Shown piece by piece: positions 34,987-51,961 of a stretch of DNA of 64,000 bases (positions are counted from its first letter, which is position 1; each line of letters opens with the position of its first letter). This stretch comes from Nocardia arthritidis (lineage in GTDB: Bacteria; Actinomycetota; Actinomycetes; Mycobacteriales; Mycobacteriaceae), in contig NZ_CP046172.1 in the NCBI RefSeq assembly GCF_011801145.1, positions 6,014,001-6,078,000 of the forward strand, given 5' to 3'. Under the pieces are notes generated by a model. The model made no database searches. It was not told the DNA's origin and saw only the letters and a list, made by a program, of their open reading frames with translations. A program made the translations under genes and the position numbers.

Positions 34987-36744
34987 TCAGGCCGCCACCC
35001 GCACCGCGTCGTCGCGGGAAACCAGTGCGGCGTAACGACCTTCGCGGGCCAGCAGCTCCTCGTGGGTGCCGCGTTCCACGATGCGGCCGCGGTCGAGCAC
35101 CACGATCTGGTCGGCGTCACGGATGGTGGACAACCGGTGCGCGATGGTGATCGTGGTGCGGCCCGCCGACAGCGCGTCGAGCGCGGCCTGCACCTCGTGC
35201 TCGGTCTGAGTGTCGAGCGCGCTCGTCGCCTCGTCCAGCACCAGGATCGGCGGATCGCGCAGGATCGCCCTGGCCACCGCGAGGCGCTGCTTCTCACCGC
35301 CGGAGAAGCGGTAGCCGCGCTCGCCGACCAGGGTGTCGTAGCCGTCGGGCAGGCTCGCGATGTGATCGTGTATCCGCGCGGCCTTGGCGGCGGCGTGCAA
35401 TTCCTGGTCCGTCGCATCGGGTTTCGCGAAACGCAGGTTGTCGGCGACCGAGGCGTGGAAGAGGTAGGTCTCCTGGGAGACCACGCCCACCGCTGCCGCC
35501 AGATCCGCGAAACTCAGGTCGCGCACGTCGATTCCGTCGATCGTCACCCGGCCCGAGGTCACATCGTAGAGGCGGGCCACCAGGTAGCCGAGAGTCGTTT
35601 TCCCGGAACCGGTTTCGCCGACCACCGCGAGGCTCGTACCCGCCGGGACCGTGATATCGATATCGGTGAGCACCGCACCGGTGCCGCCGCCGTAGCCGAA
35701 TCCGACGTGGTCGAACGCGATCTCGCCTTTAATATCCGGCGCGGGCACCGGGTCGGTGGGTTCCGCGAGATCCGGTCGCAGATCGAGATATTCGAAGATC
35801 CGGCCGAACAGCGCCAGCGAACTCTGCACCTCGACGCCGGTCGAGAGCAGCTGCACCATCGGGCGCAGCAGGCTGGTCTGCAGGGTGGTGAACGCGACGA
35901 GGGTGCCGATGGAAACCAGCGGATGCCCTGCGGCAACGGTCATTCCGGCCGCCCAGTAGATGACGGCCGGCATCGCGGACATGATTATCTGGATCGTCGA
36001 CTGCCGCCACCGGCCCGCCATATTCGACCGGATCTCCAGATCCACCAGGCCGCGGGATTCCCTGGTGAAATCGCCGACCAGTTCGGGTGCGCGACCCATG
36101 GTGCGCCCCAACAGGATTCCGCTCACCGACAGCGATTCCTCGACGATCGCCGACATGCTCGCCAACTGCTGCTGGCGCCGGCCGGTGATCCGGCGGCGCT
36201 CATCGCCGACCCGGCGGCTCACCCAGACGAAGAAGGGCAGCATCACCAGCGAGATGATGGTCAGCCGCCAGTCGAGCGCGACCATCGCGACCATCGCGGC
36301 GATGACGGTGGTGAAATTCGAGACCAGCGAGGTCGCGGTGGAGGTCACCGTCGACTGCATGCCGCCGATATCGTTGGCGATCCTGGACTGCACCTCACCG
36401 GTGCGCGTTGTGGTGAAGAACGCCAACGGCATTCGCTGCAGCTGCGCGTAGACCCCCGAGCGCAGGTCGTGCATCACCTCCTGGCCGACGGCGGTCGAGA
36501 GGTAGGTCTGTAGCACGCCGAACACGCTGGTGAGCGCGGCGACACCGATCATGCCCGCGGCGAGCAGGGTGAGCAGACCGGTGCGGCCGTGCGGCAGCGC
36601 GTCGTCGAGTATGCCGCGCAACATGAACGGTGATGCCAGGGCCACCACCGAGGACAGGCCGACCAGTGCCGCGACCACGGCCAGTCGGGCGCGATAGGGA
36701 TGGAAGAGCCGGACGATCCGGCGGAGTTGATGCGGTGACTGCAC
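34987..36744 (-). CDS. ABC exporter, fused permease and ATPase
   Basis: 585 residues from GTG 36744 with AAGGAGG upstream. Six membrane segments lie in residues 1-310, then an ATPase: Walker A VGETGSGKTTLG, Q-loop VVSQETYLF, signature FSGGEKQRLAVARA, Walker B ILVLDEATSALD and H-loop IAHRLSTI. It is a B-family (MsbA/LmrA-like) half transporter that probably works as a homodimer exporting a lipid or drug. A MarR gene diverges from it across 85 bases with two MarR boxes. Confidence 0.92.
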   Translation of the reverse strand: MQSPHQLRRIVRLFHPYRARLAVVAALVGLSSVVALASPFMLRGILDDALPHGRTGLLTLLAAGMIGVAALTSVFGVLQTYLSTAVGQEVMHDLRSGVYAQLQRMPLAFFTTTRTGEVQSRIANDIGGMQSTVTSTATSLVSNFTTVIAAMVAMVALDWRLTIISLVMLPFFVWVSRRVGDERRRITGRRQQQLASMSAIVEESLSVSGILLGRTMGRAPELVGDFTRESRGLVDLEIRSNMAGRWRQSTIQIIMSAMPAVIYWAAGMTVAAGHPLVSIGTLVAFTTLQTSLLRPMVQLLSTGVEVQSSLALFGRIFEYLDLRPDLAEPTDPVPAPDIKGEIAFDHVGFGYGGGTGAVLTDIDITVPAGTSLAVVGETGSGKTTLGYLVARLYDVTSGRVTIDGIDVRDLSFADLAAAVGVVSQETYLFHASVADNLRFAKPDATDQELHAAAKAARIHDHIASLPDGYDTLVGERGYRFSGGEKQRLAVARAILRDPPILVLDEATSALDTQTEHEVQAALDALSAGRTTITIAHRLSTIRDADQIVVLDRGRIVERGTHEELLAREGRYAALVSRDDAVRVAA

Positions 36745-36780
36745 GGGCGCCTCCTTCCGCGACGAGTTATCCCATAAAAC

Positions 36781-36793
36781 TGAGTATTGCTCA
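36781..36793. promoter_or_regulatory. MarR box 1
   Basis: TGAGTATTGCTCA is an imperfect palindrome. With box 2 (31 bases away, three helical turns) it forms a larger inverted arrangement filling the MarR/ABC promoter region. Confidence 0.65.
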
Positions 36794-36811
36794 TAATTGT
36801 CCCCCAAACAA

Positions 36812-36824
36812 TGAGCTATGCTCA
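36812..36824. promoter_or_regulatory. MarR box 2
   Basis: TGAGC-TAT-GCTCA is a perfect 5+5 palindrome ending five bases before the preferred MarR start and covering the alternative ATG at 36818. Confidence 0.65.
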
Positions 36825-36829
36825 GAAAC

Positions 36830-37261
36830 ATGGACACCGCTCCCGACCTACCCGAGCTGTTCCTGCGCACCGCCCGCCGCATCCGCCGCAACCAGATGAC
36901 CAGGCTCGCACCCATCGGCATCACCCCGGGGCAGGCCCGAGCGCTGCGCATCATCGGGCATCAGGACGAACCGCCGCGGATGGCGGCGCTGGCCGAACGC
37001 CTCGGCATCGTCCCCCGCTCCGCCACCACCGTCGTCGACGCACTCGAGGCCGCGGGACTCGTCACCCGCGCCGCCGACCCGAACAACCGGCGCTCCACCC
37101 TCGTCTCGCTCACCGCAGACGGCCGGGAAGCGCTGCGCCGGATCGACGGAGCCCGCCGCGCCGCGGCCGAGGAGATCTTCGCCACGCTGTCCGAGAACCA
37201 GCGGGAGACCTTGCGAAACCTCTTGGCCGCCTTGGAATCCGTCGAATTGTCTCGCCCCTGA
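36830..37261 (+). CDS. MarR-family regulator of the ABC exporter
   Basis: 143 residues from ATG 36830 (ATG 36818 adds four and lies inside an operator box). The winged helix is visible: PPRMAALAERLGIVPRSATTVVDALEAAGLV, then DPNNRRSTLVSLTADGREAL. No Shine-Dalgarno precedes either start, so the transcript may be leaderless. Twin boxes upstream argue for repression of itself and of the divergent exporter. Confidence 0.88.
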   Translation: MDTAPDLPELFLRTARRIRRNQMTRLAPIGITPGQARALRIIGHQDEPPRMAALAERLGIVPRSATTVVDALEAAGLVTRAADPNNRRSTLVSLTADGREALRRIDGARRAAAEEIFATLSENQRETLRNLLAALESVELSRP

Positions 37262-37341
37262 CACCATGTCAGGACCGTGTCGGTCCCGTGTCAGGGCCGT
37301 CGCCGATCGTGGCGTAACAACCAGCCACGAAAGGTAATTCG

Positions 37342-38568
37342 ATGACTCAGACGGTTCCCGTCCCACAGGGCCTGCCCATGGCGCGCAACGCCGGTCCCTT
37401 CGTTCCGCCGCTGGAAATCACCCGGCTACGCGCGGCGCGCCCGGTCAGCCCCATGGTGTTCCCCGATGGTCACGAGGGCTGGCTCATCACCGGGTACGAG
37501 GAGGTCCGCCAGGTGCTGGCCGACACCCGGTTCAGCTCCCGCCAGGACATCGGCATCATCCACGTGCCGTTCGAAACCCCCGGCATGCCAAGACCCACCG
37601 AACCATCCCCGCAGACGCCGGGCCTGTTCGTCGCCATGGACCCGCCGGACCACACCCGGCTGCGGCGCAAGCTCACCGGCGCCTTCACCGTCAAACGCAT
37701 GAAGGAGCTAGAGGAGCACATCGTCGAAATCGCCGAGCGGCAGCTGGACGCGATGACGCGGATGACCCCGCCGGTCGACCTGGTCAAGGAGTTCGCGCTG
37801 CCGGTGCCCTCGCTGGTGATCTGCGAACTGCTCGGCGTCCCCTACGCGGACCGGGCGAACTTCCAGGTCAACTCCGCCAAGTTCCTGGAGCGGGAGGTGA
37901 CGCTCGAGGACAAGATGGCCGCGTACGGCGCGATGACCACATACCTGGCCGGACTCGTCATGGGCAAACGCGCCGAACCCGGCGAGGACATCCTGTCCGA
38001 CCTGGCCCGCGATGACGATCTCGGCATCGATGAATTGGTCGGCATCGCCTTCCTGCTGCTGCTCGCGGGGCACGAGACCACCGCGAACATGCTGGGGCTC
38101 GGCACCTTCGCGCTGCTGGAGAATCCGGAACAGCTCGCCGAACTGCGCGCCGACCCGGACCTGTTGCCGGATGCCGTCGACGAACTGCTGCGCTACCTGT
38201 CCGTCGCCGACATCTTCTATCGCTACGCCACCGAAGATATCGAGCTCGGCGGCGAGACGATCGGCAAGGGATCGACCGTCGTCATCTCGCTGCTGGCCGC
38301 CAACCACGACCCCAAGCGCTTCCACGACCCCGACACCCTCGACATCCACCGCAGGGCCCGCGGCCTGGTGGCCTTCGGACACGGCATACACCAGTGCCTG
38401 GGCCAGCAATTGGCCCGCGTCGAGATGCGCGCCGGATTCGCGGCACTGCTGCGCCGCTTCCCGACCCTCGAGCTCGCCGTCCCCGCGAACGAGGTGCGAC
38501 TGCGCACCGATATGAATATCTACGGCGTCCACGAATTGCCGGTCACCTGGACGGAAACGGCCCAGTAG
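37342..38568 (+). CDS. Cytochrome P450
   Basis: 408 residues with AAAGG upstream. All P450 landmarks are present: I-helix AGHETTAN, ExxR in VDELLRYL, and the heme loop FGHGIHQCLGQQLAR with the Cys ligand. The soluble bacterial CYP105/107-like pattern lacks a membrane anchor. No ferredoxin or reductase gene is adjacent, so electrons come from elsewhere. The substrate is unknown. It lies 80 bases after the MarR gene on the same strand. Confidence 0.93.
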   Translation: MTQTVPVPQGLPMARNAGPFVPPLEITRLRAARPVSPMVFPDGHEGWLITGYEEVRQVLADTRFSSRQDIGIIHVPFETPGMPRPTEPSPQTPGLFVAMDPPDHTRLRRKLTGAFTVKRMKELEEHIVEIAERQLDAMTRMTPPVDLVKEFALPVPSLVICELLGVPYADRANFQVNSAKFLEREVTLEDKMAAYGAMTTYLAGLVMGKRAEPGEDILSDLARDDDLGIDELVGIAFLLLLAGHETTANMLGLGTFALLENPEQLAELRADPDLLPDAVDELLRYLSVADIFYRYATEDIELGGETIGKGSTVVISLLAANHDPKRFHDPDTLDIHRRARGLVAFGHGIHQCLGQQLARVEMRAGFAALLRRFPTLELAVPANEVRLRTDMNIYGVHELPVTWTETAQ

Positions 38569-39962: not shown

Positions 39963-41102
39963 CTATGCCGCCTCGACGAGGTACTTGGCCACCGCCGCCT
40001 CGTCGAGCTCGATGCCGATGCCCGGACGCTCTGAAATCCGAACCTTGTTGTCCCCATATGTCATTCGCGTTTCCGGGGTGAGCAGTTGCTCGAAGTTGTA
40101 GATCCCCTTGTCCAGCGCGAAGAATTCGACGACGAGGGTGTTCTGGGTGGCGCCGCACAGGTGGACGTGCAGGTTGTGATGCCAGTGCGGTGCCATTCGC
40201 AGGCCGAACGAGTCGGCGGTGTGCGCGATGCGGACCCATTCGGTGACACCACCGACGACGCCCGCATCGGCCTGCAGGATCGCGGCGGCCCCGGATTCGA
40301 TGAGATGGCGGAATTCCCAACGGGTTTGGTGGATCTCTCCGGTGGCGACCGGGGTGCGGATCCGCCGGGCCAGCTCGGCATGCCCCGCGACGGCGTCCGG
40401 GGTGAGCGGTTCCTCGAACCACCAGATGCCCGCATCGCCCGCCGCCCGCTCGAAGGCCTCGATCGCCGACTGCGCCTCGGGCACGGATCGGTAGGCGTTG
40501 TTCGCGTCGAGCGCGAGTCGCCCCGTGTCGCCGATGGTTTCGATGGCGGCGGCGACCCGGCGGGCGTCCTCGGCGACCGAGAGCCCGCCCACTTTGATCT
40601 TGTGGTCGGTGAACCCCTGCGCGGCGTTGAACCGGATCTCGGCGCGCACGGCGTCGGTCCACGCGCCGTCGTCCGGGCGGTAGTAGCCGCCGGACGCGTA
40701 CGCGGGCAACGCGGTCACCGCGCCGCCGAGCAGATTCACCAGCGGCAGCCCGGCGCGCTTGGCGCGCAGATCCCACAGCGCGATATCGATCGCCGACAGC
40801 GCGCGCAGCACCGCGCCGCGACGGCCCGCGAGCAGGGTTTCCTGATAGGCGCGGCCCCACAGCCCGTAGACATCGTTGACATCGGCGCCGAGATATACCG
40901 GCGCGAGCAGGTCGTCCACTGCGCGCTTGGTGAGCGCTCCCCCGGTGACGCCCGCGTAGGTGTAGCCCAGACCCGTTGCGCCCGAGTCGTCTTCGAGTTC
41001 GACGAGCAGATATTGCCGGTCGTTCAGTTCGCGGTTGGACATCCGGGTCGGCCGGTCGACCGGAATCGCGACCACGCGGGTGCGGATTCGGGTGATGGTC
41101 AT
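39963..41102 (-). CDS. Enolase-superfamily dehydratase/racemase (mandelate racemase group)
   Basis: 379 residues, ATGA-coupled to the aldehyde dehydrogenase. The KxK base motif (DHKIKVGG), metal ligands in ALDANNAY, WWFEEPLTP and VATGEIHQ, then QADAGVVGGVTEW and the His of HWHHNLH, place it in the mandelate racemase subgroup. Such enzymes mainly dehydrate sugar acids or related hydroxy acids to 2-keto acids. A 2-keto acid is the substrate type of the ThDP decarboxylase in the same operon, which suggests the order dehydratase, decarboxylase, dehydrogenase. Confidence 0.88.
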   Translation of the reverse strand: MTITRIRTRVVAIPVDRPTRMSNRELNDRQYLLVELEDDSGATGLGYTYAGVTGGALTKRAVDDLLAPVYLGADVNDVYGLWGRAYQETLLAGRRGAVLRALSAIDIALWDLRAKRAGLPLVNLLGGAVTALPAYASGGYYRPDDGAWTDAVRAEIRFNAAQGFTDHKIKVGGLSVAEDARRVAAAIETIGDTGRLALDANNAYRSVPEAQSAIEAFERAAGDAGIWWFEEPLTPDAVAGHAELARRIRTPVATGEIHQTRWEFRHLIESGAAAILQADAGVVGGVTEWVRIAHTADSFGLRMAPHWHHNLHVHLCGATQNTLVVEFFALDKGIYNFEQLLTPETRMTYGDNKVRISERPGIGIELDEAAVAKYLVEAA

Positions 41103-42463
41103 GCTCTGCTCCTCGGAACCTGGGCGGTGCGCACCGCCTGGATATTGGCGAATTCCAGCGCGCCGTAGGCGCTCAGCTCGCGGCCGTAACCGCTGGCCGC
41201 GACGCCGCCGACGGGCAGCCGCGGATCGGATTCGGAGATCCGGTTGATGAATACCGATCCGGCCGTGACCCGGTCGGCGAGCCGATCGATCCGCGACCGG
41301 TCGGTCCCCCAGATGGCGCAGCTGAGGCCGTAGACGGACGAATTGGCAACGGCCAGCGCATGTTCTGCGGAACCCACCGGGAACACCGCACCGAGCGGGC
41401 CGAACGTCTCCTCGCGGAAGGCCGGGCAGTCCGGACCGGGCACCTCGATCAGCGTCGGGGTGAACCAGGCGCCGGGACGGTCATCGAATTCGCCACCGGA
41501 CAACACCTTCGCGCCCGCCGCTACTGAAGCGTCGAGCTGACGGCGCAATTCGTCGCGCAGATCGATTCGCGCCATCGGGCCGATGAACGTCTCGGGCAGC
41601 GCCGGATCGCCGTAGGCCAATGTGCCGAGCGCACCGGTCAATTCGGCGACGAACTCGGAAAATACAGAGCGCTCCACGATGATCCGTTTGGCGGCGAGGC
41701 AGCTCTGCCCGTTGTTCAGATATCGCGACCGGGCCGCGGCCGCCGCGGCCAGTGGCACGTCGGCATCGGCGAGCACGATGAACGGATCGGATCCGCCGAG
41801 CTCCAGCACGGATTTCTTCACCGCCCGCCCGGCCCGCGCCCCCACGACGGCGCCGACCCGATTGCTGCCGGTGAAGGCCACGGCCGCGACGGCGGGATCG
41901 TCGATGAGCCGTCCGATCCGCTCGGGTTCCAGCCGGACGCCGGTCAGCACGCCGGGGCCGAATGCCTCGTCGAACAGTCGCTGGACCGCGACCGCGCACC
42001 CGCTGACATTGTCGGCGTGCTTGAGCAACACCCGATTGCCGATGGCGATGGCGGGCGCCATCGACCGGAACACCTGCCAGAACGGGTAATTCCACGGCAT
42101 GATCGCCAGAACCACACCGAGCGGCCGCATTCGGATGCGGCCGGTGTCGGGCAGTACGTCGACCGATTGCGGCGCAAGCAGTTCCGCCAAGTGGTCGGCG
42201 TAGTACTCGCAGGTGACGGCGCACTTCTCGAGTTCGGCGGCGGCCTGGGTGATCGACTTGCCCATCTCCGCGGTGATCAGCGCGGCCAGCGACACCGATT
42301 CATCGCGGAGCCGAACCGCCAACCGCCGCAGGCCGTTCGCGCGTTCATCCACCGATAATTCGCGCCGCACCGCCAGCTCCAGTGCGGCCGCGAGTTCCGC
42401 ATCGGTGGTGAAAGGGTAAGTGTCCAAAGGCTTCCCGGTGGCCGGGTCGATCGTGGTGATCAC
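41099..42463 (-). CDS. NAD(P)-dependent aldehyde dehydrogenase
   Basis: 454 residues starting 4 bases inside the ThDP beta-subunit gene end. Catalytic residues are intact: ELGGSDPFIVLADAD with the Glu, and NNGQSCLAAKR with the nucleophilic Cys. PWNYPFWQVFRSMAPAIAIGN is typical of the succinate-semialdehyde dehydrogenase (Sad/YneI-like) group. It likely oxidises the aldehyde made by the decarboxylase. The exact substrate is unknown. Confidence 0.9.
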   Translation of the reverse strand: MITTIDPATGKPLDTYPFTTDAELAAALELAVRRELSVDERANGLRRLAVRLRDESVSLAALITAEMGKSITQAAAELEKCAVTCEYYADHLAELLAPQSVDVLPDTGRIRMRPLGVVLAIMPWNYPFWQVFRSMAPAIAIGNRVLLKHADNVSGCAVAVQRLFDEAFGPGVLTGVRLEPERIGRLIDDPAVAAVAFTGSNRVGAVVGARAGRAVKKSVLELGGSDPFIVLADADVPLAAAAAARSRYLNNGQSCLAAKRIIVERSVFSEFVAELTGALGTLAYGDPALPETFIGPMARIDLRDELRRQLDASVAAGAKVLSGGEFDDRPGAWFTPTLIEVPGPDCPAFREETFGPLGAVFPVGSAEHALAVANSSVYGLSCAIWGTDRSRIDRLADRVTAGSVFINRISESDPRLPVGGVAASGYGRELSAYGALEFANIQAVRTAQVPRSRA

Positions 42464-43050
42464 CGGACCTCCGCGGAATCCGTCCGCGCGGCGAGCCAGT
42501 CCTGGAATCGCCTGCCCAGCACCACCGGATGCTCCAGCAGCTTCGGCACATCCGGCGCGTTGCCGACGGCCAGCCGCACATGGAGCAGCACCGGTCCGTC
42601 GATCGTCAGCACCTCGCGCATGCCCCGCTCGAGCTCCCGCTCGTCCGCGGCCCGGCGCACGGTCCAGCCCGCCGCTATCGCCAACTCCCCCAGGTCGATT
42701 CGCGAACCGTAGGTCGGCAGGTTCGCGGTGGCGCCGTATACGCCGTTGTCCAGCAGCACCAGCACAAGTTTCGCCGGGCGCAGAAAGCCCGCCGTGGCAA
42801 GCACATTCGGATTCATCAGCAGCGAGCCGTCGCCCTCGACGGTGACCACCTTGGGCACCGGCCGGTCGGCCAGCCCGAGCGCGATACCGGTGCCGACCGA
42901 TCCGGCCAGACCCATCGAATCCAGCAGATAAAGGTGATTCGGCCGGTCGGCCACCGCCGCCAGTTCCCGGCTCGACGCCGCACAGGTGACCACGACCGGC
43001 AGGTCCGCGGTGTGCGCGGCGATAATGCGCAGCGCGTCTATGCGTTTCAC
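42460..43050 (-). CDS. ThDP-dependent 2-oxo acid decarboxylase, beta subunit
   Basis: 196 residues from GTG 43050, two bases after the alpha-subunit stop. It carries the ThDP-binding motif GDGSLLMNPN...LLDNG (GDG to N about 28 residues) and a family start like sulfopyruvate or phosphonopyruvate decarboxylase beta (MGLAGSVGTGIALGLADRP). The alpha subunit is the preceding gene. Together they decarboxylate a 2-oxo acid to an aldehyde. Neither sulfonate nor phosphonate genes are nearby, so substrate specificity is open. Confidence 0.87.
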   Translation of the reverse strand: MKRIDALRIIAAHTADLPVVVTCAASSRELAAVADRPNHLYLLDSMGLAGSVGTGIALGLADRPVPKVVTVEGDGSLLMNPNVLATAGFLRPAKLVLVLLDNGVYGATANLPTYGSRIDLGELAIAAGWTVRRAADERELERGMREVLTIDGPVLLHVRLAVGNAPDVPKLLEHPVVLGRRFQDWLAARTDSAEVR

Positions 43051-43052
43051 GA

Positions 43053-43595
43053 TCAGGCCGCCTTTCCGTCGGTGGACCAGAAGTGCGCGAGCACGACGAC
43101 GGGCCGGAAGGTCATGCGCGCGTGCACGCCCGCCTCGGTGACCACCGCCCGCCAGTCGGATGGCCCACTGCGCCGGTCCAATTCGAAATATCTGATGCCG
43201 AGTTCGTCGAGCAGGCCGGGCACATGCTGGCTGAACGTGTGGATCATCGAGTTGTACTCACCGAGCCCGCCGCGGGTGTTGGCGACGATCAGCAGCGGCA
43301 GCTGATAGGCGACGTTGAAGGTGGTCAACGCGGTCAGCGCATTTCCGAAACCATTGTCCTGCATGATGATCGCGCCGAATCGGCCGGTCAGCGGCAGCGC
43401 GCCGAGCACGCCCGCGGCCTCCTCCTCACGGGAGAGCGGGAAGACGGTGGCCGATTGCCCGTCGCGCCCACCGCTGGTTTCCACCAGCGCCGAGATGACG
43501 GGCGCGACGCTGACCGACGGAACGTAGCCGACCAGATCCACCCGCGCGGCCCACACACCCTCGGCGACCGCCGCCGCGTACGCATTGGAATTCAC
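43053..43595 (-). CDS. ThDP-dependent 2-oxo acid decarboxylase, alpha subunit
   Basis: 180 residues from GTG 43595 with AAGGGG 6 bases upstream. It is the pyrimidine-binding half of a split ThDP enzyme (ComD/sulfopyruvate decarboxylase alpha-like): FPLSREEEAAGVLGAL supplies the glutamate that activates ThDP, and IIMQDNGFGNALTALTTFN follows. It is first in the enzyme operon (alpha, beta, aldehyde dehydrogenase, dehydratase), 118 bases from the gntR gene end, where an AGCATGC operator lies. Confidence 0.87.
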   Translation of the reverse strand: MNSNAYAAAVAEGVWAARVDLVGYVPSVSVAPVISALVETSGGRDGQSATVFPLSREEEAAGVLGALPLTGRFGAIIMQDNGFGNALTALTTFNVAYQLPLLIVANTRGGLGEYNSMIHTFSQHVPGLLDELGIRYFELDRRSGPSDWRAVVTEAGVHARMTFRPVVVLAHFWSTDGKAA

Positions 43596-43662
43596 GAAAG
43601 CCCCTTCGCCGGAACCGACTGGTGATAGCCCACCAGGTGATAGAAACATACTACCTATCCTG

Positions 43663-43676
43663 AGTAGCATGCAACT
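43663..43676. promoter_or_regulatory. GntR/FadR operator candidate A
   Basis: AGTAGCATGCAACT is an inverted repeat with one mismatched pair around GCATGC. A related perfect palindrome precedes the transporter, suggesting one regulator for both. The same gap also carries a direct repeat of GGTGATAG at 43621 and 43636. Confidence 0.6.
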
Positions 43677-43714
43677 AGCAGATAGCAGCGAATTCCCAAG
43701 CGCCGAAACGCGGT

Positions 43715-44437
43715 TCAGTAGACGATCTGCTCCCCCGCAGGCACCGATATCGATACCCAACGCCGCCACTCGGCGACCAGCCCCCGATTGTCCTCGCTGC
43801 TGTGCGCGACCAGCAGATCCCCCGAACGCACCAGATGGATGCGCATCGCGCGCTCGGCGGCCACCCCGTCGCGGGCGCGTAGCGCATCGATGATCGCCTT
43901 GTGATCGCCGAGCGCCGTCTCCACCGACTGATATTTCGGCACGCTGTAGCGCCCGTCGAGGGAGAGCGTCTGGCGTAGCTCGGCGACGAATTTGGCCAGC
44001 CGCCGATTGCCGCTGGCCCGCAGGATCAGATCGTGCAGCCGCTCGTCGGCGGCGAAGTATTCGGCGCTGCCGTCGGCGGTGGCCGCCATGATGTCGTACT
44101 GCTCCCGCAGCTCGGCGTCGTCGCGGCTGGTCAGCACCGCGGCGGCGCTGCGGCAGGCGGGCGGTTCCAGCAGCACACGCAGGCTGCACAGGTCGACGAT
44201 GCCGCGGCCGTCCTGCCCGAGCACCCTGGCCCCGCGATTGCGCTCGATCCGCACCAGGCCCAGATCGGCGAGCTTGAGCAGCGCCTCGCGCACCGGCGTC
44301 CGCGATGCGCCGAAGCGCTCGCCGAGCTCGCGCGACGAATAGAGCACGCCGCGTTCGAGCCGACCCTGCCGGATCGCGTCCCGGATCTCCTGGGCGATCT
44401 GCTCGGATTTGCTGTCTACCGACTCATCCTGGGACAA
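43715..44437 (-). CDS. GntR-family (FadR subfamily) regulator
   Basis: 240 residues from a TTG start after AGAGG. Winged helix at residues 10-75 (GVLYSSRELGERFGASRTPVREALLKLADLGLVRIERNRGARV), then a helical FCD ligand domain with metal-binding His in ADERLHDLILRASGNRRL and DHKAIIDAL. FCD regulators bind organic acids. It is encoded between the enzymes and the transporter, all on the minus strand, with operators A and B at both, and is the obvious local regulator. Confidence 0.9.
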   Translation of the reverse strand: MSQDESVDSKSEQIAQEIRDAIRQGRLERGVLYSSRELGERFGASRTPVREALLKLADLGLVRIERNRGARVLGQDGRGIVDLCSLRVLLEPPACRSAAAVLTSRDDAELREQYDIMAATADGSAEYFAADERLHDLILRASGNRRLAKFVAELRQTLSLDGRYSVPKYQSVETALGDHKAIIDALRARDGVAAERAMRIHLVRSGDLLVAHSSEDNRGLVAEWRRWVSISVPAGEQIVY

Positions 44438-44465
44438 GACACCTCTTCATGGACCCGTGAGCAAG

Positions 44466-44503
44466 CGGAAATCGCCCGTGGCACAACCGCCCCGGGCGAT
44501 TCC
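44466..44503 (-). terminator. Hairpin after transporter gene
   Basis: AATCGCCCG (44470-44478) pairs with CGGGCGATT (44493-44501), and GG/CC extend the stem. It follows the transporter stop and precedes gntR, so those genes are likely separate transcripts. Confidence 0.55.
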
Positions 44504-44530
44504 TCAGCATAGTCGCTCGGCGAGCCGCCC

Positions 44531-45856
44531 TTAGGCACCCGCCCGCACCGCGTCGCGCGCCCGCCACCGCAGCCCCAGGATGACCAGCAGCGCACCGACA
44601 TTGGCCGCGATCATCACCCCCATCGCCAGCCCGGTGTCACCGCCCGACGCGTCCTCGATCCAGCCGAACGCGTACGGGCTGACAAATCCGGCCGCGTTAC
44701 CGAGCGAATTGATCAGCGCGATGCCGCTCGCCGCGCCCGCGCCGGCGAGGTAAGCCGTTGGCACCGACCAGAACAGCGGTTTCGCGGTCTGCGCCGCCAT
44801 GGTCGCGATGCTGATCGCGATGAACGCGACGGCCGCGGTGTGCAGATTCCCGGCGGTGACCACGAAGGCGACCACCGAGACGGCCAGTGCGACGAGAACC
44901 GGTTTGGCCGAACGCTCGTCGCGCACCAGCCGCCCGCAGACGTACATGCAGATCGCGGCGAGCAGGAACGGCACCGCCGACAACCAGCCGACCTGGGCGC
45001 CGGTCAGCCCGTGCCCGACATCCTTGATCACCGACGGCATCCAGTAGGTGAGCGGGTACGCGCCGCACAGCAGCAGGAAGTAGGCCAGGCAGAGGGCGAT
45101 CACCCGCTTGTCGAGCAGCGCGGCCCGATGTCCGGCCGGCGCGACGAGTGCCCGCTCGGCCTCCTCCGCGGCGAGGGTGCGGCACAGCCAGTCCCGCTCC
45201 AGGTCGGTCAACCACTTTGCGTCGCTTGGCTTTTCGGTGAGCAGGAAGAAGAAGGCGACGCCGAGCGCGACCGCGGGCAGCCCGCCGACGACGAGTACCC
45301 AGCGCCAGCCGCTGAATCCGAGCGCACCGTCGAAGGCGTCGAGTATCCAGCCGTTGAGCGGGCCGCCGAGCACGCTGGCGATCGGGATGGACACCATGAC
45401 GGTCGAAATCACTTTGGTGCGATGGTCGTTCGGATACCAGCGGGTGAGATGGACGATGATGCCCGGAAAGAAGCCCGCCTCGGCGACGCCGAGCAGGAAA
45501 CGCAGCGCGTACGCCGTCGGCAGATTGGGCGCGAAAGCCGTTGCGGTGGCGATGATTCCCCAGGTCACCAGGATTCGGCTCAGCCAGAGCCGGGCGCCGA
45601 CCCTGGTCATGATCACATTGCTCGGCACCTCGGCCAGCACGTATCCGATGAAGAAGATGCCCGCCAGGAATCCGTATTGGGTGGCGCTCATCCCGAATGT
45701 CTTCTCCATGCCGAATTTGGCGAAACCGATATTGATCCGGTCGAGGTAGCTCACGATGTAGCCGACCATCAGCAGCGGGACCATCCGCAGCGTGATCTTG
45801 CGAATCGCGTTCTCCTGCAACGGGTCCGCCGCGATGCGGGACGTCGCCTGATTCAT
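44531..45856 (-). CDS. MFS transporter, anion:cation symporter (ACS) type
   Basis: 441 residues from ATG 45856 with TGGAGGAAAG upstream. It has about twelve hydrophobic segments. The start (KITLRMVPLLMVGYIVSYLDRINIGFAK) and YGFLAGIFFIGYVLAEVPSNVIMTRVGARLWLSRI are hallmarks of the ACS family (tartrate, galactonate, phthalate and similar carboxylates). It probably brings the substrate of the neighbouring dehydratase-decarboxylase-dehydrogenase pathway into the cell. A perfect GTAGCATGCTAC palindrome lies 70-83 bases upstream of its start. Confidence 0.9.
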   Translation of the reverse strand: MNQATSRIAADPLQENAIRKITLRMVPLLMVGYIVSYLDRINIGFAKFGMEKTFGMSATQYGFLAGIFFIGYVLAEVPSNVIMTRVGARLWLSRILVTWGIIATATAFAPNLPTAYALRFLLGVAEAGFFPGIIVHLTRWYPNDHRTKVISTVMVSIPIASVLGGPLNGWILDAFDGALGFSGWRWVLVVGGLPAVALGVAFFFLLTEKPSDAKWLTDLERDWLCRTLAAEEAERALVAPAGHRAALLDKRVIALCLAYFLLLCGAYPLTYWMPSVIKDVGHGLTGAQVGWLSAVPFLLAAICMYVCGRLVRDERSAKPVLVALAVSVVAFVVTAGNLHTAAVAFIAISIATMAAQTAKPLFWSVPTAYLAGAGAASGIALINSLGNAAGFVSPYAFGWIEDASGGDTGLAMGVMIAANVGALLVILGLRWRARDAVRAGA

Positions 45857-45925
45857 CTTTCCTCCACAGCGCAGAGCCAGCCGTGTTGGCATGCAACCCT
45901 GTGAAGTGACATGCCTTATTTGATG

Positions 45926-45939
45926 TGTAGCATGCTACT
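45926..45939. promoter_or_regulatory. GntR/FadR operator candidate B
   Basis: GTAGCATGCTAC (45927-45938) is a perfect 12-bp palindrome upstream of the ACS transporter. It shares the AGCATGC core with site A before the decarboxylase operon. Confidence 0.65.
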
Positions 45940-45988
45940 TATGTTGTGACCTGGCGCACAAGGGTTTTCGCGAAGATCCCGGAACGCG

Positions 45989-48097: not shown

Positions 48098-48892
48098 ATG
48101 ATGTCGACGGATGACGCCGCGGTGGTCGCGCGGCTGCGGGCGGCGGGGTGTGTGTTCGCCGAGGACGAGGCCCGGCTGCTGATCGAGGCGGCCGCTACCG
48201 GTGCCGAGCTGGAAAGTCTTGTCGCGCAGCGGGTTTCCGGGACGCCGCTGGAATATCTGGTGGGGTGGGCGGAGTTTCGCAAGCTGCGGGTCGCCGTCGC
48301 GCCGGGGGTTTTCGTACCGCGGCGGCGGACCGCGCTGCTGGTGGACGAGGCGGTGGCCGCGGTGACCGGTCGCACCGAGGTGGTCGCGGTCGATCTGTGT
48401 TGCGGTTCGGGGGCTTTGGGGATGGCGTTCACGACCGAGCTCGAGGGGATTCGCGTCGAGCTCGTCGCGAGCGATATCGAACCGGCCGCGGTGGACTGTG
48501 CTCGGCGCAATCTGGAACCACTCGGTGGGCGGGTCTACCAGGGCGATCTGTTCGCCGCGCTGCCAAGGGAACTGGCGGGGCGCATCGATATTCTGCTCGC
48601 GAACGTGCCGTATGTGCCGACCGCGGCGATCGCGGATATGCCGCCCGAGGCACGCGATTACGAACCGCGCATCACCCTCGACGGCGGGGATGACGGGTTG
48701 GCGGTATTCCGCCGGGTCGCGGCGGCGGCGCCGGACTGGTTGGCGCCGGGCGGCAAGGTGTTCGTGGAAGCCGGTGCGGCGCAGGTCGAATCGGCCGCGG
48801 CGTATCTCGAACGATGCGGATTGACCGCGCGGGTGGCGGAATCGGATGAGTACTACGCGACCGCCGTGATCGGCACTCGACCGAATCAGTAA
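48098..48892 (+). CDS. PrmC-like N5-glutamine methyltransferase, variant NVPY
   Basis: 264 residues from ATG 48098, placed 7 bases after GGCGAGGA. A short helical N-terminal domain precedes the methyltransferase with VVAVDLCCGSGALGMAF and VASDIEPAAVDCARRNL. The active-site loop is LLANVPYVP instead of the usual NPPY. Family members with this variant are annotated as putative protein N5-glutamine methyltransferase of unknown substrate, distinct from the release-factor enzyme. It converges on the anchored small protein with a 7-base overlap. Confidence 0.87.
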   Translation: MMSTDDAAVVARLRAAGCVFAEDEARLLIEAAATGAELESLVAQRVSGTPLEYLVGWAEFRKLRVAVAPGVFVPRRRTALLVDEAVAAVTGRTEVVAVDLCCGSGALGMAFTTELEGIRVELVASDIEPAAVDCARRNLEPLGGRVYQGDLFAALPRELAGRIDILLANVPYVPTAAIADMPPEARDYEPRITLDGGDDGLAVFRRVAAAAPDWLAPGGKVFVEAGAAQVESAAAYLERCGLTARVAESDEYYATAVIGTRPNQ

Positions 48893-49392
48893 GGGCCGAA
48901 ACTTCTTTGGATTTCGGCGACCATCGCGAGTTGTTTGCGCACCTGGTCGAGCTGGGCGACATTGCCCTGGGTGACGGCCTCGGAGTACTGCGCGACACCG
49001 GCTTCGATCGCCTGCACCGCGTGCAGGGCGGTCATCAGGAGGTTCCCGCGCAGGGCGGGCGCGACGCCGTAGAGGGCGACGATGTGATCGTCCACCGCCA
49101 GCGCCGACTGTTCCAGATCGGCGCGTAGGTTCAGGCCCATTCCGTTGTCGAAGGGGATGACCGTGCGCAGCGCCGCCATCGCGTCGCGCAATCGACGGTG
49201 CAGCAGTGCCTCGCGTTCGTTGGAGGTCAGCCAGTGCAGCGGGGCGCGGGTGGGGCGGCCGGGGATGACCTCGTTCGCCTGGTTTGCCTGGGCCTGTTCG
49301 CGCTTCCTGATACCGCTTTTGCTCGCCACGATCATGATCACGATGAACGAAATGATCCCCACCGGTATAAGTGGGCCTAGCACGGCTTGCAT
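48886..49392 (-). CDS. Membrane-anchored protein, paralogue B
   Basis: 168 residues from ATG 49392 with GGGAGGT upstream. One N-terminal membrane segment (LGPLIPVGIISFIVIMIVA) is followed by a soluble helical domain: RPTRAPLHWLTSNEREALLHRRLRDAMAAL, then LRADLEQSALAVDDHIVALYG. It is clearly paralogous to the upstream neighbour (shared GRPTRAP, LLHRRLRDAMAALRTV, LRADLEQ-AL-DDH). No family recognised. As the last gene of the zinc-ribbon operon, it probably acts in the same membrane complex. Confidence 0.78.
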   Translation of the reverse strand: MQAVLGPLIPVGIISFIVIMIVASKSGIRKREQAQANQANEVIPGRPTRAPLHWLTSNEREALLHRRLRDAMAALRTVIPFDNGMGLNLRADLEQSALAVDDHIVALYGVAPALRGNLLMTALHAVQAIEAGVAQYSEAVTQGNVAQLDQVRKQLAMVAEIQRSFGPY

Positions 49393-49432: not shown

Positions 49433-49936
49433 TCACCGAGAGCCCAGGCTCTTCTCGATCTCGGCGATCAACGTCAGCTGGTCGCGCACCGCTCCCAGAC
49501 CCGACTCCAACTGCGCGGTATCGGCCCTTGTCGCCGACGACGCATATTCTGCTACACCGGTCTCGACGGCTTCCACCGCCTTCGTCGCCGCGGCCAGCAA
49601 CTCGGCCTTGTTCGCCTGCGGCAACCCGGAGATGGCGACGAGATGGTCGTCTATCGACAGCGCCGTCTGCTCCAGATCCGCGCGCAGCACGATGCTGGTG
49701 CCGTTGTCGATGGCGCTCACCGTGCGCAGCGCTGCCATCGCGTCGCGCAACCGGCGGTGCAGCCGCGCCTCCGGATCGTGCGAACCCGCCCAGGAGATCG
49801 GCGCGCGGGTCGGACGGCCGGGGACGACCTCGTTCGCCGCGGCCTGCGAACGCTGTTGGTTGCGCGAGAGCACGACCACCGCACCAACCACGCCCGCGAT
49901 GATCAGCACCACCACGATCAGCAAGATCACGATCAT
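49433..49936 (-). CDS. Membrane-anchored protein, paralogue A
   Basis: 167 residues from ATG 49936 with AGGAGG (overlapping the previous stop). An N-terminal membrane helix (MIVILLIVVVLIIAGVVGAVVVLS) is followed by a helical domain sharing RPTRAP, RLHRRLRDAMAALRTV and LRADLEQTALSIDDHLVAISG with paralogue B. The pair arose by tandem duplication. Function is unknown; coupling to the zinc-ribbon protein suggests a role in its membrane complex. Confidence 0.78.
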   Translation of the reverse strand: MIVILLIVVVLIIAGVVGAVVVLSRNQQRSQAAANEVVPGRPTRAPISWAGSHDPEARLHRRLRDAMAALRTVSAIDNGTSIVLRADLEQTALSIDDHLVAISGLPQANKAELLAAATKAVEAVETGVAEYASSATRADTAQLESGLGAVRDQLTLIAEIEKSLGSR

Positions 49937-49939
49937 GCG

Positions 49940-51961
49940 CTACCTCCTGGTATGCGTCGAATGACTGGTCGAATGTCCGTGTGCGCGTAAATAACTGAAG
50001 ATCGCGATGGCGATGACGACGATCACGACAGCCGCGAGCACCGCGAGCGCGATCTTCACCTTGCTCCACGGCCGATCGCCGGACACCTGCCCGGTGAGAC
50101 CGTTGATGTACACCTGGAACGGCTTCTCGTTGTATATCACCGTGAGCAGCCAGATCGGCAGCAGCAGATGTTTGAAACCCAGGTAGCGCCAATCGATTTG
50201 GAGATTGTGGATGCGCTGGTGGTCGCCGCCGATATCGGAGCGCACCGTCGATTCGATGGCGTGCTCCATCCGCTGCTGCGCCTCCGGCAGCGACTGCTCG
50301 GCATCCTTGTCGTAGGTGCGGCACAGGTGCCCGGCCACGAATTCCGGTGAATACGAACGGGCCTCGTCCACCGGCCACGGTTCCAGCGACGCGATCCGCT
50401 TGCGGTCCAGGTTCTCGCCGTCGTTGGCCAGCACCGGCAGATCCGCGAAATCATTGGCGACCTGCCCGGATACGTGATACCAGTTGGTGCGCGTCTCGTA
50501 TATCGGATCGCCGTCGTCATCGGTGCCGACCCGCACCTGATAGTCGTCGCCGCGCTCACCCTCGTACCAGGTGCTGGTGTCGGCGTCATAGGTGAAGTAG
50601 GCGGTGTACAGGCTGGAGAACGCGCCGACACGTCGGTACTTCTTGAAATCGCTCGGCGCGAACCACCGCCTGGTGACCCACTTTTCGATGAGCTGCCTGG
50701 CCTGCTTCTCATCGATCCGGAACGGCACCAGGCCGTCCACCGGCAGGCGGGCCGGGGCGTTGTGCACATCGTCGCGCTGGATCGGCGTCGCGCAGTAAGG
50801 GCATTTGGTCGCGGTCAGGCTGCCGTTGAATTCGGTTTTACCACCGCAGTTCTGGCAGACCACCTCCCACTGCCCGCTCACCTGCGGACCGGATCGGTTC
50901 GCCTGCAGCTCCCGCAATTCCGCCATGGCCGAATACAATTCGCGCGTCTGCGGCGGCGTATTCGGCGCGGTGATCTCGGAATAGTTGCCGCAGTTCGGGC
51001 AGCGCAACTTCTGGCTGGCGATATCGAAGGCCAACTGCCCACCGCACGCCGAACACGGATAGGTGCGCGTCAACTCGGTGCGATGCAGCATCGCCCGATC
51101 CGCCACCTCCGGCGCGGACTGATCCTGTTCCTGTTGCCTGGCCGGAACAGGTTGCGGCGCAATCTGAATCCCGATCGCCGGAGCGACATTCGGCCCCGCT
51201 GTGGCGACCGGCGCAGCCGCGTAGCCCGGCTGTCCCGCGAACTGCGGCCCGCCCGACTGCTGCTGCGGCAACGGCGGCGGACCGGCCGGACGCAGCGGCG
51301 GCGGGCCACCCATCCCCGGACCGCCCTGCGGCGGCAGCGGCGGCGGACCACCCACTCCGACACCGCCCGGCGGCGATGGCGGCGGACCGGTTGGTCGCAG
51401 CGGCGGCGGACCACCCATCCCCGGACCGCCCTGCGGGGGCAGCGGCGGCGGACCGGCCACCCCGACACCACCCTGCGGCGATGGCGGCGGACCTGCCGGA
51501 ACCTGCCCAATCGGCGGAGCGGAACCCGCACCCCCCGATTGCGCTGGCGGCAGACCATCCGACGACACGCCAACTCCCTGCGGCGGCAACGACATCGAAC
51601 TGCCCGGATAAGGCATGCCCGACTGTGCCGGATCAGCAGGACCAGTGCCCATCCGCGGGGACGGCGGCGTCGCACCATACGGATCGGCCGATCGCGGCGG
51701 CAGCGGCGGTGGACCGGCCGGAGCGGCGGATCCAGCGGGCGGCGACATCGGACCGGCTCCGAAGTTCTGGGGCGGGTAGGGAGTTGCCGACGGCGGACCG
51801 GCTGGGGCCTGGCCTATCTGTGGGCCGGATCCCGGGAATGGCGGGCCATCGTTGCGAGGACCCGGCAGCGGCGGTGGACCGGAAGGGGTCCGGTCCGGGG
51901 CCGGGCCGGTGGGCGGCGGGTTACCCGGGAGTGGCGGCGGTTGCGGCGGTTGGTAATTCAC
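49940..51961 (-). CDS. Proline-rich zinc-ribbon membrane protein
   Basis: 673 residues from a GTG start without a strong ribosome site. Residues 1-280 are a proline/glycine-rich tail with many PPPLP-type repeats. Two zinc ribbons follow: CSACGG with CPNCGN, and CQNCGGKTE with CPYC. A domain like those of the B. subtilis YdjG-type proteins follows (PFRIDEKQARQLIEKWVTRRWFAPSDF). One membrane segment lies near the C-terminus (VKIALAVLAAVVIVVIAIAIF). It is the partner type of the SPFH protein encoded upstream. Confidence 0.82.
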   Translation of the reverse strand: MNYQPPQPPPLPGNPPPTGPAPDRTPSGPPPLPGPRNDGPPFPGSGPQIGQAPAGPPSATPYPPQNFGAGPMSPPAGSAAPAGPPPLPPRSADPYGATPPSPRMGTGPADPAQSGMPYPGSSMSLPPQGVGVSSDGLPPAQSGGAGSAPPIGQVPAGPPPSPQGGVGVAGPPPLPPQGGPGMGGPPPLRPTGPPPSPPGGVGVGGPPPLPPQGGPGMGGPPPLRPAGPPPLPQQQSGGPQFAGQPGYAAAPVATAGPNVAPAIGIQIAPQPVPARQQEQDQSAPEVADRAMLHRTELTRTYPCSACGGQLAFDIASQKLRCPNCGNYSEITAPNTPPQTRELYSAMAELRELQANRSGPQVSGQWEVVCQNCGGKTEFNGSLTATKCPYCATPIQRDDVHNAPARLPVDGLVPFRIDEKQARQLIEKWVTRRWFAPSDFKKYRRVGAFSSLYTAYFTYDADTSTWYEGERGDDYQVRVGTDDDGDPIYETRTNWYHVSGQVANDFADLPVLANDGENLDRKRIASLEPWPVDEARSYSPEFVAGHLCRTYDKDAEQSLPEAQQRMEHAIESTVRSDIGGDHQRIHNLQIDWRYLGFKHLLLPIWLLTVIYNEKPFQVYINGLTGQVSGDRPWSKVKIALAVLAAVVIVVIAIAIFSYLRAHGHSTSHSTHTRR

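Follow-up and report, generated by a model that had tools for sequence, protein, structure and literature searches.

What pathway is served by a gene cluster in which an enolase-superfamily enzyme, an aldehyde dehydrogenase (ALDH), and the two subunits, alpha and beta, of a split thiamine diphosphate (ThDP) decarboxylase are encoded together with an importer and a regulator? The cluster lies in the single-contig, 10,014,015-base genome of Nocardia arthritidis, and we analyzed it within a stretch of 64,000 nucleotides (NZ_CP046172.1, positions 6,014,001-6,078,000), hereafter the window. A sequence-only reading had proposed that an imported hydroxy or sugar acid is dehydrated to a 2-keto acid, decarboxylated to an aldehyde, and oxidized to a shorter acid. 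Because the synteny is conserved, the promoter sites are shared, and some relatives of the decarboxylase have fitting contexts, this three-step order appears moderately probable from sequence, while the specific substrate remains a guess. The proposed gene set and its coupling were borne out: all six reading frames are open, head to tail on the minus strand, with 4-bp overlaps at beta/ALDH and ALDH/enolase and a 2-base gap between alpha and beta, and the synteny is kept in 18 close loci. The features, by window position, are as follows:

39963..41102, minus strand: enolase (ENO) of the mandelate racemase (MR) subgroup, presumed acid dehydratase (MR_MLE_N + MR_MLE_C)
41099..42463, minus strand: ALDH, Sad/GabD1 succinate-semialdehyde type (PF00171, 378 bits)
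42460..43050, minus strand: split ThDP decarboxylase beta, predicted ThDP-binding subunit (PF02775, TIGR03846, GDG...LLDN motif)
43053..43595, minus strand: split ThDP decarboxylase alpha, GTG start (TIGR03845, motif MQDNGFGN...RGGLGEYNSMIH)
43664..43675, no strand: operator-like palindrome GTAGCATGCAAC upstream of alpha, putative regulator-binding site
43715..44437, minus strand: GntR/FCD transcription regulator, TTG start (PF07729, 90 bits; PF00392, 56 bits)
44531..45856, minus strand: MFS importer, D-galactonate-transporter-like (PF07690, 159 bits; TIGR00893, 284 bits); the start at 45856 has the better ribosome site, and a longer frame runs from 45892
45927..45938, no strand: operator-like palindrome GTAGCATGCTAC upstream of the MFS gene, putative regulator-binding site

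Conservation of the six-gene cluster

Using an alignment of 20 enolases, we fetched 80 enolase loci from named genomes, the top-ranked among at least 575 confirmed stretches, and looked for alpha and beta in their flanks by tblastn (E <= 1e-6, >45 bits). The enolase was close to that of the window (72-83% identity) in 18 of the 80 loci, which span the five genera Nocardia, Amycolatopsis, Actinomadura, Actinocrispum, and Pseudonocardia. Since alpha, beta, GntR, and MFS genes were each present in 18/18 of these close loci, and an ALDH gene in 17/18, the linkage of the six genes is not due to chance. Neither alpha nor beta was found in any of the 62 loci with 44-65% identical enolases, within the fetched flanks, some of which were short. 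When open reading frames of the close loci were clustered, only the six genes recurred broadly across genera and flanking genes recurred within Nocardia; this clustering was rough, missing some members of the six and also yielding a few antisense or two-locus clusters. The beta gene was found at >=72% identity in 17/150 Nocardia genomes, the best named beta matches being from Nocardia (81-85%), and the best enolase match (99% identical) came from an unclassified Nocardia. Enolase relatives occurred in 2/396 genomes sampled at the phylum level. Pairwise distances of the six proteins correlated with Spearman coefficients of 0.43-0.78; these were computed without a control gene set and were not used as evidence. 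In a Pseudonocardia metagenome-assembled genome, a 635-residue protein (P0154) joins ALDH and enolase, either as a real fusion or through a frame error across the overlap.

Operator-like sites

The window has two near-identical palindromes: GTAGCATGCTAC precedes the MFS gene, and GTTGCATGCTAC precedes alpha. With two mismatches or fewer allowed, such a site stands before both genes in 19/19 loci (the window and 18 others), the MFS-side site of L033 carrying two mismatches, and beyond these pairs only one further two-mismatch site occurs across all these loci (L024). The host genome contains the exact pattern GTWGCATGCWAC at two places, each of them at this cluster (reversed control, 0), and eight relatives contain it at one or two sites each (control, 0); in the five relatives with two exact sites, these are as far apart as in the corresponding locus. 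A search of the window allowing up to three mismatches gave 14 sites versus 14.43 expected, i.e., no signal. Since that search matches chance, weight is given only to exact or near-exact sites and to how well they are conserved. We infer that the FCD regulator binds both palindromes until the substrate or an intermediate releases it. The importer and enzymes seem to form one closed, self-contained catabolic regulon, so that the cell should be able to use the end product with no additional genes controlled in this way.

Families of the six proteins

Five of the six proteins scored above Pfam cut-offs (MR_MLE_N/MR_MLE_C, Aldedh, TPP_enzyme_C in beta, GntR plus FCD, and MFS_1), and alpha had no Pfam match. 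The enolase belongs to the MR subgroup (MR_MLE N domain, 181.8 vs 29.4 bits; C domain, 64.8 vs 22 bits), and beta is placed among ThDP decarboxylases by PF02775 (59.3 vs 21.9 bits) together with a GDG...N motif in the alignment. Scores against NCBIfam models were lower than the cut-offs throughout: 231 vs 500 for the enolase (L-talarate/galactarate dehydratase); 443 vs 855 (NF010575, Sad) and 425 vs 730 (NF006915) for the ALDH against succinate-semialdehyde dehydrogenase (SSADH) models; 81 vs 148 for alpha (TIGR03845) and 130 vs 221 for beta (TIGR03846) against sulfopyruvate decarboxylase; 111 for beta and 34 for alpha against the cut-off of 312 for phosphonopyruvate decarboxylase (TIGR03297); 96 vs 271 for the GntR protein, whose best model was phnR_burk; and 284 vs 395 for the MFS protein (TIGR00893). 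Since all six fall under these cut-offs, the cluster does not correspond to any sulfopyruvate, phosphonopyruvate, or talarate system on file. The nearest solved structures of the ALDH (3efv, 8qmq, and 4it9) are each labelled SSADH. Judged by these comparisons, the families of the six proteins are clear and their substrates are not.

The enolase and its sister loci

The full MR-type catalytic set is present in the enolase: K168/K170, D199, E231, E256, D279, and H306, which we take to be the KxK base, three acidic metal ligands, and a His-Asp dyad, are invariant in 20/20 aligned enolases, and candidate active-site residues are common to the enolase groups in this alignment. K170 aligns with K197 of TalrD, the residue altered in entry 2pp3, and R24 aligns with a TalrD arginine, which may argue for an acidic or polyhydroxy substrate over an aromatic one. 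The predicted structure is confident (mean pLDDT, 92.4), and many MR-subgroup folds match it alike. We also compared 200 enolases (the best 120 proteins listed less one joined protein, plus those of the loci and the window), comprising 61 close, 108 intermediate, and 31 distant sequences. An attempt to read the substrate from this comparison was set aside: group-consensus positions 6, 23, 70, 85, 237, 249, 309, 327, and 333 separate the groups, and no specificity is readable from them.

Proteins of the sister loci, i.e., those with more distant enolases, were scanned as representatives, mostly from L043, L049, L053, L085, L089, and L097. Actinobacterial sister loci encode an IlvD/EDD dehydratase (774 vs a cut-off of 539) of the PRK06131 subfamily, which scored below the cut-off of the L-arabinonate dehydratase model (669 vs 882); an L-2-hydroxyglutarate-oxidase-like protein (2-hydroxyacid oxidase-like, 326 vs 299); a D-2-hydroxyacid dehydrogenase; a GMC oxidoreductase; a KduD-like SDR below its cut-off (220 vs 339); an FAH-family hydrolase; and a DHDPS protein tied between 3dz1 (94 bits) and L-2-keto-3-deoxyarabonate dehydratase (93 bits). 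In L053, a nickel-pincer isomerase gene (8661-10004; group 22, 431 vs a cut-off of 400) adjoins the sister enolase and IlvD/EDD dehydratase genes, which suggests C2 epimerization of an acid before dehydration; members of the same sequence cluster occur in L050, L051, and L069. Halomonas-type sets hold a GntR relative, IlvD/EDD, enolase, a DHDPS-family protein, a GhrB-like dehydrogenase (371 vs 492), and an FMN 2-hydroxyacid dehydrogenase, and three genes before the enolase are presumably TRAP-like, given their size and order. The Chloroflexota-type set (L085) differs, with amidohydrolase, peptide-type binding, MaoC-like, and nitroreductase proteins. Since the actinobacterial and Halomonas-type sets suit 2-hydroxy and 2-keto-3-deoxy acids, the window enolase would, by analogy, most likely make such a keto acid. 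In L040, a 60% identical enolase occurs together with a 60% identical MFS protein, which suggests that the imported acid is common to both enolases.

Relatives of the decarboxylase

Stretches around relatives of beta were annotated on one member per group, giving seven contexts from 15 loci. In context 1 (L129, L130, L132, and L133; beta 56% identical), genes for GntR, a class I aminotransferase, alpha, beta, 5-oxoprolinase PxpA (316 vs 226) with CT_C_D, and MFS occur with a divergent SSADH-family ALDH (548 vs 646), CT_A_B being called in L129 and L130 only; this cluster looks like one for catabolism of a modified pyroglutamate via a 2-oxoglutarate analogue. A class V aminotransferase gene adjoins alpha in context 2 (L134 and L135; beta 40-41%), and context 3 (L109; beta 41%) holds L-2-hydroxyglutarate oxidase (481 vs 299), DHDPS, RraA, SDR, and GntR genes. 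Context 4 (L127 and L128; beta 61-62%) is an MFS-RidA-alpha-beta-ALDH run in one direction, whose ALDH is 50-51% identical to that of the window, and an AsnC-type regulator gene and a threo-3-hydroxyaspartate ammonia-lyase-like gene (445 vs 452) lie ~4.5 kb off. In context 5 (L108 and L124-L126; beta 61-62%, alpha 71%), the pair is convergent to MFS, amidohydrolase, and 4-oxalomesaconate tautomerase genes (the last 475 vs 440 in L124), a setting as in gallate or protocatechuate breakdown; an RraA-like gene in L124-L126 rests on an indirect match. Context 6 (L110; beta 42%) has SDR, ABC-type, and leucyl aminopeptidase genes, and context 7 (L131; beta 57%) has TRAP-like and aldo/keto reductase genes. 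A 2-oxo-acid-making enzyme is thus clearly encoded beside alpha or beta in three of the seven contexts (1-3) and perhaps in context 4, and an ALDH related to that of the window in contexts 1 and 4.

The pattern QDNG(F/I)GN...RGG(L/P)GEYN(S/A)MIH is found in 22/23 aligned alphas; only the ComD encoded in a sulfonate-type plasmid region lacks it. Sampling of genomes recovered alpha-beta in 5/298 at the order level, in 1/393 at the class level (the host itself), in 3/220 of family f31 (38-40% identity), and in 15/297 of the family of G377; thirteen of these last 15 were fetched, G377 being L108, and G1331, in which the beta match falls in two pieces, was left out. One of the thirteen, L136, repeats the Actinocrispum cluster of L027. 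Plasmid records (87 records) yielded only <60% relatives. Not counted as contexts were L111-L115 and L148 (beta matches of 33-38%, no alpha match), L147 (sulfonate-type), and L106 and L107 (narrow stretches only). In L112 and L113, from the host's genus, a single-chain phosphonopyruvate-decarboxylase-like frame lies near a D-2-hydroxyacid-dehydrogenase-like gene and an ALDH gene, and this frame possibly belongs to phosphonate biosynthesis.

Proposed route and its alternatives

In the route we favor, the MFS protein would import a polyhydroxy acid (an aldonate or aldarate), from which the enolase-superfamily enzyme would abstract the proton next to the carboxylate and expel the 3-hydroxyl, giving a 2-keto-3-deoxy acid. 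Alpha-beta with ThDP would convert this acid to an aldehyde one carbon shorter, the ALDH would oxidize the aldehyde to an acid entering general metabolism, and the FCD regulator would sit on both palindromes until the substrate or an intermediate frees them. Sugar acids are our preferred, if tentative, substrate class. Within that class, our leading guess from sequence, though by itself rather unlikely, is a pentaric acid (xylarate, arabinarate/lyxarate, or ribarate), which would be converted via 4-hydroxy-2-oxoglutarate to 2-hydroxy-4-oxobutanoate (malate semialdehyde) and then to malate. This guess was made because the regulon seems closed and malate is central, because the ALDH belongs to the succinate-semialdehyde type, of whose substrate malate semialdehyde is the hydroxy analogue, and because decarboxylase contexts 1 and 3 involve enzymes of five-carbon dicarboxylates.

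Several observations weigh against the three-step route. None of the six proteins reaches the cut-off of its best NCBIfam model, and L037 (Pseudonocardia acaciae) has no ALDH gene within 10 kb. Among the decarboxylase relatives, contexts 5-7 (L108/L124-126, L110, and L131) show no clear 2-oxo-acid maker, L108/L124-126 also having no relative of the window ALDH or enolase at E <= 1e-10, and the sole candidate for that role in context 4 (L127/L128) is 4.5 kb away. The genome-wide operator search covered the exact pattern only, and degenerate sites elsewhere are possible.

Other substrates were also considered. With an aldonate (C4-C6, e.g., a pentonate), a doubtful version, the same steps would end in a 3-hydroxy acid finished by other pathways (3-hydroxypropionate from a tetronate, 3,4-dihydroxybutanoate from a pentonate), so that it competes with the pentarate version and not with the three steps. 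The sister loci hold enzymes that would fit aldonates, namely the PRK06131-subfamily IlvD/EDD, the tied DHDPS protein, the KduD-like SDR, and an FAH-family hydrolase, and the enolase groups have candidate active-site residues in common. The L049 hydrolase (best HpaG, 146 vs 276; 2,4-didehydro-3-deoxy-L-rhamnonate hydrolase, 108 vs 500) and the Halomonas-group DHDPS protein (DapA-labelled, 182 bits, and YagE, 94 bits, vs 70 for 4-hydroxy-2-oxoglutarate aldolase) likewise speak against the pentarate. However, no additional enzyme lies under the exact operator pattern in the host genome, and the ALDH has its nearest matches among enzymes acting on a dicarboxylic semialdehyde. Tartrate, one of the substrates named in the sequence-only reading, is possible but improbable: a tartrate dehydratase would yield oxaloacetate, then malonate semialdehyde and malonate. 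Sulfopyruvate and phosphonopyruvate have oxaloacetate as their carboxy analogue, and alpha-beta relatives occur near the ammonia-lyase-like gene of L127 (445 vs 452), outside the MFS-RidA-alpha-beta-ALDH run, and near the 4-oxalomesaconate genes of L124 (tautomerase, 475 vs 440); we take the threo-3-hydroxyaspartate and 4-oxalomesaconate pathways both to yield oxaloacetate. Yet oxaloacetate is already central and needs no decarboxylase, which would be wasteful, and malonate needs more enzymes, none of which lies under the exact operator pattern.

Two further alternatives concern the enzymes. The enolase might be a racemase/epimerase or a cycloisomerase, with the 2-keto acid coming from elsewhere, since the MR subgroup includes both activities and the fold comparison ranks the putative racemase 2ovl first, with 3,6-anhydrogalactonate cycloisomerases (5xd9 and 5xd8) close behind. 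We regard this as unlikely, considering that the six conserved genes hold no other 2-oxo-acid-making enzyme and that, in sister loci, the enolase is accompanied by IlvD/EDD dehydratases and by separate isomerase or redox genes for 2-hydroxyacids. The least probable reading makes alpha-beta a genuine sulfopyruvate or phosphonopyruvate decarboxylase, with the enolase having a different substrate within the same regulon. The best curated matches of the pair (TIGR03846/TIGR03845 and TIGR03297) and the best score of the GntR protein (phnR_burk, 96 vs 271) point that way, but the curated matches are all far under their cut-offs and the alpha motif is unlike that of the one sulfonate-context ComD compared. 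In addition, no Xsc over the cut-off was found in the host genome (310 vs 676; other sulfonate genes were not searched genome-wide), which together with the sulfopyruvate decarboxylase scores leaves sulfolactate, another of the substrates suggested earlier, without support. The earlier statement that sulfonate and phosphonate genes are missing nearby holds for the 10 flanking genes of the window that were scanned, none of which (0/10) received such a name, two having no Pfam match.

Returning to the three-step route, its best reading is that decarboxylation would add a fourth fate for 2-keto-3-deoxy acids to the three of aldol cleavage, dehydration, and dehydrogenation. We put forward, as a speculative claim, that this fate is natural (e.g., from pentarate to malate) and that alpha-beta represents an unrecognized family of split ThDP decarboxylases serving several non-sulfonate, non-phosphonate 2-oxo-dicarboxylate pathways; under the same joint and speculative claim, the alpha motif given above would mark the family, and its substrates would be 2-oxo acids with a second carboxylate. 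If true, sugar-acid catabolism would include a natural chain-shortening branch; such a branch is otherwise familiar to us only from engineered routes (butanetriol synthesis through keto-acid decarboxylation). A function would also be gained for a decarboxylase group often named sulfopyruvate or phosphonopyruvate decarboxylase in sources, allowing annotations to be corrected, and the cluster would offer a two-promoter, single-regulator sensor for an acid. As far as we have seen, this is a new arrangement of known enzyme families; the literature search was too limited to claim absence from print.

Setting of the cluster in the window

The G+C content is 0.64-0.73 across the window (2-kb steps), with no break at the cluster, and the flanking genes look ordinary: an ABC exporter, MarR, cytochrome P450, DUF6194, and MerR to one side, with FolD, a DUF218 protein, and a methyltransferase to the other. 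Scanned against Rfam, the window gave nothing at the gathering score, and no tRNA was found in it. At 34987-38568, the start of the ABC exporter gene abuts that of the opposite-strand MarR regulator, followed by the cytochrome P450 gene. A 673-residue protein (49940-51961, minus strand) without a Pfam match has a long N-terminal part that is rich in proline and glycine and based on tandem repeats of 42 and 105 bases (51265-51500). Two adjacent small proteins of 168 and 167 residues (48886-49392 and 49433-49936, minus strand) are similar by eye, and the latter has no Pfam match.

Comparison with known systems

TalrD (2pp0; Polaromonas 2og9/3cb3), the best curated and profile match of the window enolase, is like it in MR-subgroup fold and catalytic set, at 31-35% identity in structural alignment; we know of no ThDP decarboxylase in the TalrD pathway. 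ComDE is, like alpha-beta, a two-subunit ThDP decarboxylase with the same subunit order. The annotated comDE of Leisingera, however, encodes proteins 27% identical to alpha and 38% to beta, has a different alpha motif, and, unlike the window pair, lies with a histidinol-dehydrogenase-annotated gene and TRAP genes. Sad (YneI) of E. coli and Salmonella is the nearest solved ALDH, and its catalytic motif region is the same as that of the window ALDH, whereas the residue before NNGQSC is Leu in the window ALDH and Gln in Sad (8qmq, 3efv).

In the non-phosphorylative Routes I-III of sugar-acid catabolism, as described by Watanabe et al. (2019; PMC6336799), an acid is likewise dehydrated to a 2-keto-3-deoxy acid by enzymes whose genes are clustered with those of a transporter and a regulator, and the keto acid is then cleaved (aldol), dehydrated, or dehydrogenated. 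The six conserved genes of the window cluster include no Route I-III aldolase, keto-acid dehydratase, or dehydrogenase plus hydrolase. Unlike Routes I-III, the window cluster has a ThDP decarboxylase as its sole candidate for the next step.

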